DNA from: an uncultured Erysipelotrichaceae bacterium
GTDB taxonomy: Bacteria > Bacillota_I > Bacilli_A > RF39 > UBA660
Direction of reading: 5' to 3'
Length of the DNA stretch: 64,000 nucleotides
Assembly (NCBI GenBank): GCA_902791625.1
Contig: CADAWN010000012.1
Coordinates: 1-64,000 of the forward strand
Part shown: positions 13,363 through 19,466 of the stretch, piece after piece
How the letters are laid out: each line of letters opens with the position of its first letter
Position numbering within the stretch: position 1 is the first letter of the stretch
Made by a program: the position numbers and the translations under genes
Notes under the pieces: generated by a model
Told to the model about the DNA's origin: nothing
The model's input: only the letters and a program-made list of their open reading frames with translations
Database searches by the model: none

Positions 13363-13773
13363 TTAACAAATATCTACAAAAGTATCTGGTAGACATCTTA
13401 CTGCACTTACACAATTTAAATTTATTGTAAAGAATTGATTAGTTGCTGTATAAGTACCATCACCATTATCTATTAAGATACGACATGTAAGACAACAATC
13501 ATCTAATTTTTCACATCTAAATACAGTTGATTGAGCTTCTGTACCATTTGTTGTATAGAATATACTCCATAACTCTCCATTTTGACAATTATATAAAGTT
13601 ATTGGTCTAGTATTATAACAAACTACTTCTGGAGTTGGACCTAAGAACGGTTTATCACAACCACCTAAATTACAACAACTAGAATCTTGCTTTTGAAGTT
13701 GGATAATAGTATTTAATAAATTATATAGACAAGAACATTCTAAATTGTTTGTATTATTGTTTTCTTCACACAT
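13363..13773 (-). CDS. CotY/CotZ-like spore coat protein
   Basis: The 136-residue, cysteine-rich protein (about 14 Cys) matches the CotY/CotZ outer-coat family. It shares with its neighbour the order GCDKPFLGP, CYNTRPI, the STVFRCEKLDDCC core with TCRIL, and a FFTINLNCVSAVRCL ending. Family members form disulfide-linked lattices in the spore crust or exosporium. It is the second gene of a two-gene operon, 14 bases downstream of its paralog, with an AAAGGAG binding site. Confidence 0.85.
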   Translation of the reverse strand: MCEENNNTNNLECSCLYNLLNTIIQLQKQDSSCCNLGGCDKPFLGPTPEVVCYNTRPITLYNCQNGELWSIFYTTNGTEAQSTVFRCEKLDDCCLTCRILIDNGDGTYTATNQFFTINLNCVSAVRCLPDTFVDIC

Positions 13774-13787
13774 ATAAATTCTCCTTT

Positions 13788-14186
13788 CTAAATATCTTCA
13801 AGTACGACATCATTTAAACACTTAATCGCACATATACATTTTAAATTAATAGTTATGAAATTATCTGTTGATACAATACTATTAATATCATCAGGATTAC
13901 TTAATGCGAGTATTCTACATTTACAACAACAATTATTAACTTTTTCTACTCTAAAAATATTACTAGTAGCAGTAGTTTCTCCATTATTATAGTTTGCAGT
14001 AAATAAATTACCATTTCTTATATAGAATTGAACAGGTCTAGTATTATAACATAATAGTTCAGTAGAAGGACCTAAGAAAGGTCTATCACAACCACCTTCA
14101 CAACAGATAGAATCATCATTCTTATTTTGCAATATTTCTATAACTTTTAATATTTTTGCAAAACAACAACTTTCATTATTTACCAT
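13788..14186 (-). CDS. CotY/CotZ-like spore coat protein
   Basis: This paralog of the following gene contains GCDRPFLGP, CYNTRPVQFY, an FRVEKVNNCCCKCRIL cluster and FITINLKCICAIKCL. The ATG at 14186 is chosen because GAGGTGG ends five bases upstream; the GTG at 14195 lies within that site. A CATATTTTA element just upstream fits a mother-cell sigma-K -10 box. Two coat genes in tandem are direct evidence that this lineage retains at least part of the sporulation programme. Confidence 0.85.
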   Translation of the reverse strand: MVNNESCCFAKILKVIEILQNKNDDSICCEGGCDRPFLGPSTELLCYNTRPVQFYIRNGNLFTANYNNGETTATSNIFRVEKVNNCCCKCRILALSNPDDINSIVSTDNFITINLKCICAIKCLNDVVLEDI

Positions 14187-14206
14187 ATTTTCCACCTCTT
14201 TATTAA

Positions 14207-14333: not shown

Positions 14334-14654
14334 ATGGGAAAATATATATTAGAATATGCGATAATAGGAGCAGTTCTACTTGTTATTTTACTTGCTGTAC
14401 TTAAAGCAAATAAAAAAGATGCAAGTATGGATTTAAATAAATTAGTTGAATATTTAGGAGGAAAAGATAATATTATTAAGACTGAAGTAGAGATGTCTAG
14501 ATTTAAAGTAACTCTTAAAGATGTAACTAAAGCTAATAAAGAAGGAATTCAGAAACTAGGTGCTAAAGGAATAGTAGAGATTGATAATCAATTAAAAATT
14601 ATTCTTGATAAAGAATCTAAACAATTAAAAAAATATATAGATGAATTGAAGTAA
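14334..14654 (+). CDS. Membrane-anchored EIIB-like domain without the phosphocysteine
   Basis: The 106-residue protein has one N-terminal membrane segment (residues 6-23) and then a domain resembling the glucose-family PTS EIIB domain (PF00367): LVEYLGGKDNI near residue 38, then RFKVTLKD, GIQKLGAKGIV and a final IDNQLKIILD. In real EIIB proteins the phosphorylated cysteine sits in a CxTRLR motif. Here the position reads VEMSRFKVTL with no cysteine, and no PTS genes are nearby. It is therefore probably a regulatory or structural relative rather than a sugar phosphotransferase. Confidence 0.7.
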   Translation: MGKYILEYAIIGAVLLVILLAVLKANKKDASMDLNKLVEYLGGKDNIIKTEVEMSRFKVTLKDVTKANKEGIQKLGAKGIVEIDNQLKIILDKESKQLKKYIDELK

Positions 14655-14679
14655 AGAGGTAAAATCTTTACTTTTTTTA
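14650..14679 (+). terminator. Terminator of the EIIB-like gene
   Basis: AGTAAAGA / TCTTTACT with a seven-base loop is followed by a T run. It overlaps the promoter region of the next gene. Confidence 0.75.
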
Positions 14680-14689
14680 TATTTTATGG

Positions 14690-14695
14690 TATAAT
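14690..14695 (+). promoter_or_regulatory. Promoter -10 box of the double alarmone synthetase gene
   Basis: TATAAT at 14690-14695 with a TTTACT 17 bases upstream, inside the preceding terminator, would start transcription near 14702 and give a leader of about 40 bases. Confidence 0.5.
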
Positions 14696-14742: not shown

Positions 14743-16026
14743 ATGTTAGGTAGAAAAGAGCAGGAAAAGATGAAGTTTGAGTATACATCAGCAAGAAAAA
14801 TGTTAAATGCACATCTACATATATGTATTAAAAATTTTGAAAAAGTTAACCATTCAAAACCAGTTGAACATTATGCAGATCGTCTAAAAGAAAACTCAAG
14901 TGTAAAAGAAAAGTTAAAATTAAAGAATTTATTATTAACTAGAGAAAATATAGAAAAATTACATGATATAGTTGGTGCAAGACTTGTTTGTCCATTCATA
15001 GATGATGTTTATGATATGGTTGAACTTATAAAGAAAAGTGATTTATTACAAATATATGAAATAAAGAATTATATACAAGAACCAAAAAAATCAGGATATC
15101 AAGGTATACATGTTTTAGTAGGTATCCCTGTTAGAATGGGTGAAAGAATAAAATATGTAAAAGGTGAAATACAAGTAAGAACTGTTGCTATGGATGCTTG
15201 GGCTGCGGCTGAACACAGATTAAAATATAAGCCTAAAGGAAATGGTAAACTTGATAAAGAAGCAAAAGAGATGCTAATTACTTGTTCAAGAGCATTTAAA
15301 GGATTAGAACAATATTTAATTGGTTTCTTACCAAAAGAAAAAGAAATTAAACAAGAAAGAATTAAATTATTGGATTTTGATTCTGATAGATTAAGAAATT
15401 TAAATGAATTAAATCAAAAGGCTTTAGAACAGTTAAAAACGTATTTAAATGTAGCAATTGACTATTATCACTTAAAAAATGGCCAAAATAAGATTGAACA
15501 TTTCGACTATCGTTTAAAACCACTTGATAGTGCTTTAAGAAAGTTAAAAGAAAAAGATTGTGAGTTAACAATGGATTCACTTGAAAATAATGTTCGTGAC
15601 TATGTTGGTATAAGACTAGTTTGTCCATTTATTGATGATGTTTATGATGTTGTCGATCTAATTAAATCAAGTGATTTTCTTGAAGTTTATGAAGAAAAAG
15701 ATTATATTGAAAATCCTAAAGAATCAGGATATCAAAGTGTTCATTTATTAGTTAAAGTGCCAGTTATTGATGGAAATGATACAAAATTGGTTAAAGCAGA
15801 AATTCAAGTTAGAACACTTACAATGGATGCTTGGGCAGCTTTAGAAGATAGAATTAAATATTTAGGACAGAATAATACTTTAACAACTAAGCAAAGAGAT
15901 GAGTTAAAGACTTGTGCAGATGCATTTAAAGAAATAGATGAATATATGAATAGTCTTAATAAAAATGCGAATAAAAAAGATAATTCAGATGATGAAATTA
16001 TAAAAGTTTTAAAGAAAAAAATATAA
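14743..16026 (+). CDS. Tandem double (p)ppGpp synthetase (two RelA/SpoT synthetase domains)
   Basis: The 427-residue protein contains two complete copies of the small alarmone synthetase domain (PF04607), about residues 40-195 and 250-405. There is no hydrolase, TGS or ACT domain. Domain 1 has D75 (HDIVGARL), the G-loop tyrosine Y119 (SGYQ) and E142 (EIQVRT). Domain 2 has D286 (RDYVGIRL), Y330 and E353. Over 86 aligned core positions 57 are identical by hand count, so the copies arose by internal duplication. EHRLKY of domain 1 is EDRIKY in domain 2, which may weaken that copy. Single-domain relatives (RelQ/RelP) are about half this length. Synthesis of pppGpp/ppGpp is inferred from the family. 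The start follows AAAGGATG. Confidence 0.9.
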   Translation: MLGRKEQEKMKFEYTSARKMLNAHLHICIKNFEKVNHSKPVEHYADRLKENSSVKEKLKLKNLLLTRENIEKLHDIVGARLVCPFIDDVYDMVELIKKSDLLQIYEIKNYIQEPKKSGYQGIHVLVGIPVRMGERIKYVKGEIQVRTVAMDAWAAAEHRLKYKPKGNGKLDKEAKEMLITCSRAFKGLEQYLIGFLPKEKEIKQERIKLLDFDSDRLRNLNELNQKALEQLKTYLNVAIDYYHLKNGQNKIEHFDYRLKPLDSALRKLKEKDCELTMDSLENNVRDYVGIRLVCPFIDDVYDVVDLIKSSDFLEVYEEKDYIENPKESGYQSVHLLVKVPVIDGNDTKLVKAEIQVRTLTMDAWAALEDRIKYLGQNNTLTTKQRDELKTCADAFKEIDEYMNSLNKNANKKDNSDDEIIKVLKKKI

Positions 16027-16029
16027 AAT

Positions 16030-16054
16030 AAGTCCTAATTTTATTAGGACTTTT
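16030..16054 (+). terminator. Terminator of the alarmone synthetase gene
   Basis: AAGTCCTAAT / ATTAGGACTT forms a 10-bp stem followed by T residues. Confidence 0.8.
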
Positions 16055-18575: not shown

Positions 18576-19466
18576 ATGAATTATTATAATGAGATAAAAG
18601 AAAAATTATTAAAAAGTGAAATATATGATAGAGTAAAAGATTATTCAAAAGATAGAAATAAAGTATTTGTATACTTCGAAACAGGTAGACTATTAAGTGA
18701 AGCAGGTAAAGAATACGGTAAAAATATTATTAAACAATATTCAGAAAAACTAATGATTGAAGTTGGCAAAAAGTATAATGAAAGAACGTTAAGAAGAATA
18801 AGACAATTTTATGAAATTTTTCATAATCAAAAATGGTCCACAATGTGGACCAAATTGTGTTGGAGTCATTATCGTGAGGTCTTATCACTTAAAGATATAA
18901 ATGAAATAATATATTATTTAAATGAATGTGAAAATAAAAATCTAACTCAAAGACAATTACATGATTTAATAAAAAATAATACTTATAATAGGTTGCCCTG
19001 TATTACAAAGAATAAAATTATAAAACGACAAGAACTTGATATAAAAGATTTAATTCCAAATCCAATAATTATTAAAAAGACTTCTTCTAATGAAAAATTT
19101 TCTGAATATGTTTTAAAAGAATCTATATTAAATAATTTAGATAGTTTTTTATTACAATTAGGTAATGGATATAGTTATGTAGGAAATGAATATAAAATAA
19201 AGATTGGAAGTTCATATAACTACATAGATTTATTACTGTTTAATTATAAATATAACTGCTTTGTAATAGTAGAACTAAAAGTAACAGAGTTAAAAAAAGA
19301 ACATATTGGTCAAATAGAGGTATATATGAATTATATAGATAATAATTTAAGGAGACTAAATCAAGATAAAACTATAGGAATAGTTATTTGTAGAAGAAAC
19401 AACAAATATGTAATAGAGTATTCAAGTGATTCTAGAATAATATCCAGAGAATATCTATTAATATAA
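18576..19466 (+). CDS. PDDEXK nuclease-family protein, YhcG/DUF1016 type
   Basis: The 296-residue protein has the helical DUF1016 N-terminal domain (LLSEAGKEYGKNII, YNERTLRRIRQFYEIF, LCWSHYREVLSL) and a C-terminal restriction-like nuclease domain. Catalytic residues visible are the aspartate in NYIDLLLF, the E-x-K of VELKV, and a glutamine in HIGQIEVYMNY. Such genes are scattered accessory genes associated with defence or DNA repair and are often found alone, as here; the true function is not settled. The core genes around it suggest a single-gene insertion. The start follows AGAGGTGAT. Confidence 0.85.
   Translation: MNYYNEIKEKLLKSEIYDRVKDYSKDRNKVFVYFETGRLLSEAGKEYGKNIIKQYSEKLMIEVGKKYNERTLRRIRQFYEIFHNQKWSTMWTKLCWSHYREVLSLKDINEIIYYLNECENKNLTQRQLHDLIKNNTYNRLPCITKNKIIKRQELDIKDLIPNPIIIKKTSSNEKFSEYVLKESILNNLDSFLLQLGNGYSYVGNEYKIKIGSSYNYIDLLLFNYKYNCFVIVELKVTELKKEHIGQIEVYMNYIDNNLRRLNQDKTIGIVICRRNNKYVIEYSSDSRIISREYLLI

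Follow-up and report, generated by a model that had tools for sequence, protein, structure and literature searches.

A gene in the window (the whole stretch of 64,000 nucleotides analyzed here, from a gut Bacilli bacterium) encodes a tandem small alarmone synthetase (SAS), in which two RelP-like synthetase domains, D1 and D2, are joined by a linker in one chain of 427 residues. We lean, with a probability of roughly 0.55, toward a reading in which D1 would be catalytic and D2 would be a retained partner that has a damaged ATP site and replaces a neighboring subunit of a RelP-like assembly. Work on SAS enzymes has dealt with symmetric homotetramers, where what one subunit contributes is difficult to tease apart. 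With a natural fusion that keeps ATP-site residues in one domain and has lost them in the other, catalysis and partner function would become separable by point mutations within one chain.

Two synthetase domains in one open frame

The tandem SAS gene, delimited from its open reading frame and Pfam matches, starts with ATG and occupies positions 14743–16026 of the forward strand. On the same strand, it encodes D1 (residues 1–196, 14743–15330), the interdomain linker (about residues 197–215, 15331–15387), and D2 (about residues 216–406, 15388–15960). RelA_SpoT matches (Pfam accession PF04607) at 14881–15237 in D1 (96.5 bits) and 15511–15870 in D2 (92.2 bits) separately exceed the curated cut-off of 27 bits, confirming an earlier note on this DNA that had described two synthetase domains in a single 427-residue frame. 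The note had also reported that both domains retain key catalytic residues. We find the catalytic Asp (D75 in D1 and D286 in D2), the G-loop Tyr (Y119 and Y330), and the ExQxRT Glu (E142 and E353) in each domain, as well as the reported change of the D1 motif EHRLKY to EDRIKY in D2.

D1 and D2 are identical at 86 of 177 aligned protein positions (49%), with a local alignment score of 416 versus a mean of 38 (maximum 59) for shuffled sequences. Their ungapped core has 56 of 86 residues in common, close to the 57 of 86 counted by hand in the earlier note. At the DNA level, the 90-codon core is 69% identical and the two copies have no word of more than 15 bp in common; the duplication is therefore neither recent nor an assembly repeat.

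The genome from which the window derives has a contamination of 6.3%, which raises the question of whether an assembly or sequencing artefact joined two genes or duplicated one. We rule this out and take the domain duplication to be real, since the two halves have diverged in DNA sequence to this extent and two independent metagenome-assembled genomes (MAGs) contain the same full-length fusion. Both belong to the genus of the window (labelled g1): the orthologue in G316 (UBA7476; locus L005) is 53% identical to the window protein and that in G239 (RGIG8845; locus L006) is 50% identical. A cysteine desulfurase gene lies downstream of the tandem in all three g1 tandem genomes.

The neighbors of the tandem SAS gene in the window encode an EIIB-domain protein and the cysteine desulfurase. 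The gene is probably a monocistronic unit, because a promoter-like site lies upstream and a terminator-like hairpin follows the stop codon. The promoter-like site (14667–14695, forward strand; hexamers TTTACT and TATAAT 17 nt apart, the latter preceded by TG) lies about 48 bp ahead of the start codon and is a consensus match only, of a kind no commoner than in shuffled sequences. The bidirectional, intrinsic-terminator-like hairpin (16030–16052, forward strand) directly follows the stop; two such hairpins were found, versus a mean of 0.3 in shuffles. No RNA elements were found near the gene. A functional operon with the cysteine desulfurase was considered and rejected, given the hairpin between the two genes in the window and the placement of the SAS gene in different loci in the other tandem genera.

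The upstream neighbor (14334–14654) encodes a small protein in which a PTS EIIB-type domain (Pfam accession PF00367) accompanies an apparent membrane segment at the N-terminus, and it is kept upstream of the SAS gene in another g1 genome, G133, with 82% identity. Two adjoining CotZ-like spore coat genes (Pfam accession PF10612) at 13363–14195 of the reverse strand, here in a small-genome Bacilli MAG, occupy the same place in G133 (locus L047). Further along the window, 18576–19466 encodes a DUF1016_N and YhcG PDDEXK nuclease protein that matches the PADLOC candidate family PDC-S02.

Relationship to RelP and predicted structure

By sequence, the tandem SAS is a putative (p)ppGpp synthetase of the RelP/SAS2 type and is RelP-like in both domains. 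RelP/SAS2 structures (YwaC 6fgk, SaRelP 6ewz and 6fgj) rank first among solved structures for each half, with E-values for YwaC 6fgk of 1e-36 (D1) and 3.6e-41 (D2), and RelQ/YjbM structures are more distant (E about 1e-24). The NCBIfam YjbM equivalog model scores 249 on the tandem SAS against a cut-off of 320. Both domains share the fold, the catalytic residues, and the G-loop Pro (SaRelP Pro146; P114 in D1 and P325 in D2) with the RelP/SAS2/YwaC-SasA group (6fgk, 6fgj, and 6ewz). The tandem departs from the RelP/SAS2 norm in its layout: RelP chains carry one synthetase domain, about 210 residues long, and assemble in fours, whereas here two domains are fused in 427 residues and the second is without the ATP-ribose His.

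RelP assembles as a tetramer and is not stimulated by pppGpp, and its G-loop Pro goes with a rigid G-loop that lacks this stimulation (PMC5794853). RelQ-type pppGpp allostery would not be expected in the tandem SAS, because it is RelP-like both in this Pro and in its nearest solved relatives, YwaC and SaRelP. RelQ/SAS1/YjbM (5dec, 5ded, and 5f2v) has the synthetase fold and catalytic residues in common with the tandem but shows lower similarity, and its pppGpp-site residues Phe42, Thr44, and Asn148 are replaced in both tandem domains, as they are in RelP.

The tandem protein (P0001) matches the PADLOC model PDC-S33 with 171 bits, which would fit a toxic SAS (toxSAS) or an anti-phage effector instead of a housekeeping SAS. 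This match is non-specific, since PDC-S33 also matches B. subtilis YwaC and the single-domain orthologue described below. Moreover, the domains group with RelP/SAS2 references in the domain tree and carry the G-loop Pro, and no antitoxin-like small gene adjoins the EIIB-domain and cysteine desulfurase neighbors. We consider a toxic or anti-phage role highly improbable.

Structure prediction, which the earlier note had proposed as a check, yielded two complete synthetase folds for the whole 427-residue chain (AlphaFold2; mean pLDDT 77.7, pTM 0.74), with low confidence in the linker around residues 200–208. The model of the G316 orthologue likewise has a pTM of 0.74. These values are compatible with a packed domain pair. 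When the whole-chain model was used as a Foldseek query, SaRelP ranked first (6fgj, TM by target 0.82, 34% identity).

Two known systems resemble the tandem in part. RelZ (MS_RHII-RSD) of Mycobacterium smegmatis, termed a ‘dual-domain SAS’, also joins a SAS to a second domain, but that partner is RNase HII rather than a second synthetase (PMC7591505). E. coli RelA, a long RSH whose HD domain is inactive, offers a precedent for an alarmone-enzyme domain turned non-catalytic, although its degenerate domain is the hydrolase and that of the tandem is a duplicate synthetase (passages of the 2011 superfamily survey, PMC3153485). The terms ‘tandem’ and ‘two synthetase’ do not occur in that survey, and the same passages mention no double-synthetase protein. 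We found no description of a tandem or double synthetase architecture in the literature open to searching (subscription literature lies outside it), in line with the earlier note, whose author was aware of none.

Divergence of the second domain

As reference positions, we used SaRelP R78, K80, S84, K88, D107, R112, Y151, E174, and H190 (PMC5794853). Equivalents of the first eight are present in both D1 and D2 of the window protein. The ninth, H190, contacts the ATP ribose in SaRelP (PMC5794853) and corresponds to H158 in D1 and to D369 in D2 (codon at 15847–15849, forward strand). A Lys that comes after the next Tyr (K163 of D1) is present without exception in the 32 single-domain SAS compared and in 11 of 11 D1s, and is replaced by L, N, and N in the D2s of the three g1 tandems (L374 in the window, codon at 15862–15864, forward strand). 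SaRelP R91 is represented by Leu in D1 and Glu in D2; we dropped this Glu as a sign of D2 inactivation, as the position also varies in single-domain enzymes.

The earlier note had suggested from the EDRIKY motif that one copy could have turned regulatory, an idea that gains comparative support here. The H190 position is His in all 32 single-domain SAS; the three g1 D2s have an acidic residue there (D, D, and E), which none of their D1s has. Across the 26 columns that are invariant in the 32 single-domain SAS, each of the 11 tandem proteins has more deviations in D2 than in D1. The changes number 44 in D2 versus 12 in D1 (Wilcoxon p 0.0005), with a small effective number of independent comparisons because the 11 proteins represent only four genera; single-domain SAS show a mean of 0.19 deviations in leave-one-out comparison. 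D2 has decayed further in genus g39, with Arg112 changed to K, His155 to K, and Gln176 to I or L. One g39 genome, G172, is an exception in which the His has been lost in D1 (replaced by Trp) and not in D2.

These comparisons suggest a division of labor. D1 is the probable working active site, since it keeps every tested catalytic or ATP-contact position except that of R91, which is variable in single-domain enzymes too. D2 keeps the fold, the Mg-binding Asp/Glu, and the G-loop Tyr, and is probably weak or inactive because the ATP-ribose His and the invariant Lys have been lost. Most likely, D2 would serve as a permanent structural, and possibly regulatory, partner of D1. It may stand in for one neighbor in the RelP homotetramer, such that two tandem chains would form a pseudo-tetramer.

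The main competing explanation, to which we give distinctly less weight, has D1 and D2 both making (p)ppGpp. In that case, fusion would simply double the active sites per chain or fix an obligate dimer, and the D2 changes would be tolerated drift. As far as its sequence goes, D2 may be active, since D286, Y330, H334, E353, R257, K259, S263, and K267 are kept, and the Mg-binding Asp/Glu, the G-loop Tyr/Pro, and most ATP-phosphate contacts are conserved in both domains of the window protein and of the g124 and g44 tandems. Tolerated drift, however, sits poorly with the surplus of D2 changes that every tandem shows at positions invariant in single-domain SAS and with the absence of the ATP-ribose His and the invariant Lys from all g1 D2s.

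The excess drift of D2 can also mean changed rather than lost function. D2 might have acquired a new nucleotide specificity or might tune D1 by sensing a nucleotide, be it ATP, GTP, or the alarmone. Its preserved fold and G-loop would suit such a role, as would the acidic ATP-ribose side in two genera (D or E in g1, D in G339), but the residues that mediate pppGpp allostery in RelQ are RelP-like in both domains, and we regard a sensor or a new specificity as improbable.

Distribution and origin of the fusion

The earlier note had proposed a search for tandem PF04607 hits across genomes. We identified tandem SAS proteins in 11 of 386 sampled genomes of one Bacilli family, representing 4 of 150 genera (g1, g124, g44, and g39). 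Many other genomes of the family encode a single-domain SAS of about 200–240 residues. Outside the family, no tandem was found among the matches listed for 395 class-level and 392 phylum-level genomes (overlapping samples), and all other listed matches in these samples lie in open frames of less than 300 residues. The rarity of the tandem is established for these family, class, and phylum samples. A phage or plasmid origin was rejected, as matches from phages, plasmids, and IMG/VR are about 380–750 bp long and thus correspond to single domains.

A fourth g1 genome, G133, encodes a 197-residue single-domain SAS at the same locus, preceded in order by ftsW, two cotZ-like genes, and an EIIB-domain gene. 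The SAS frame closes with a stop codon, and the 122 bp of contig that remain contain no second domain. Because it occupies the same locus, the single-domain and tandem forms in g1 are orthologous. In the domain tree, the six g1 domains group together (99/94), the G133 single domain is their sister (97/93), and the g124 domains form a separate clade. These relationships suggest that a RelP/SAS2-type synthetase gene underwent an in-frame tandem duplication within genus g1, which would have produced the covalent domain pair.

Trees that place all D1s in one clade are rejected (p-AU 6e-25), as is a grouping of the D1s of g1, g44, and g39 (p 6e-4). The duplication thus appears to have arisen at least twice, unless the domains within each lineage have been homogenized by conversion. 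The rejection of a single clade of all 22 tandem domains against the single-domain proteins is borderline (p 0.0496), which leaves room for a common ancestral lineage prone to duplication.

A broader and more tentative proposal, which we hold short of even odds, is that covalent SAS pairs have arisen recurrently in this Bacilli family and that on each occasion the C-terminal copy evolved into a pseudo-synthetase, with a regulatory or scaffolding function toward the catalytic N-terminal copy. If true, homo-oligomers would have been converted repeatedly into single-chain enzymes that carry their own regulatory pseudo-domain. The apparently independent tandems in several genera and the single-domain orthologue at the same locus provide a small natural series in which to follow the change from a homo-oligomeric to an asymmetric, possibly self-regulated stringent-response enzyme.

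The tandem gene directly follows full-length Rel in G374, G123, and G234, and arginine-deiminase-type genes (named by sequence reading) come next in G374 and G234. In genus g124 (loci L039, L041, and L042), it comes immediately after full-length Rel, with both genes on one strand. Look-alikes of arginine deiminase, carbamoyltransferase, and carbamate kinase genes follow in L039 and L042.

We also detected a second long-type RSH (about 475–515 residues) that is widespread in the family (L065–L079), including a copy in the window genome (L002:790–2229, contig C18). It comprises HD, RelA_SpoT, and TGS domains and is too short for ACT. Its HD motifs are intact and the Glu of its synthetase ExQxRT motif is Gln in 15 of 15 aligned proteins, which suggests a hydrolase-only enzyme with a pseudo-synthetase domain. 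The full-length Rel of the window genome (L001:780–2937, contig C13) is split into overlapping frames of 182 and 554 residues, through either a frameshift error in sequencing or a genuine disruption of the gene.
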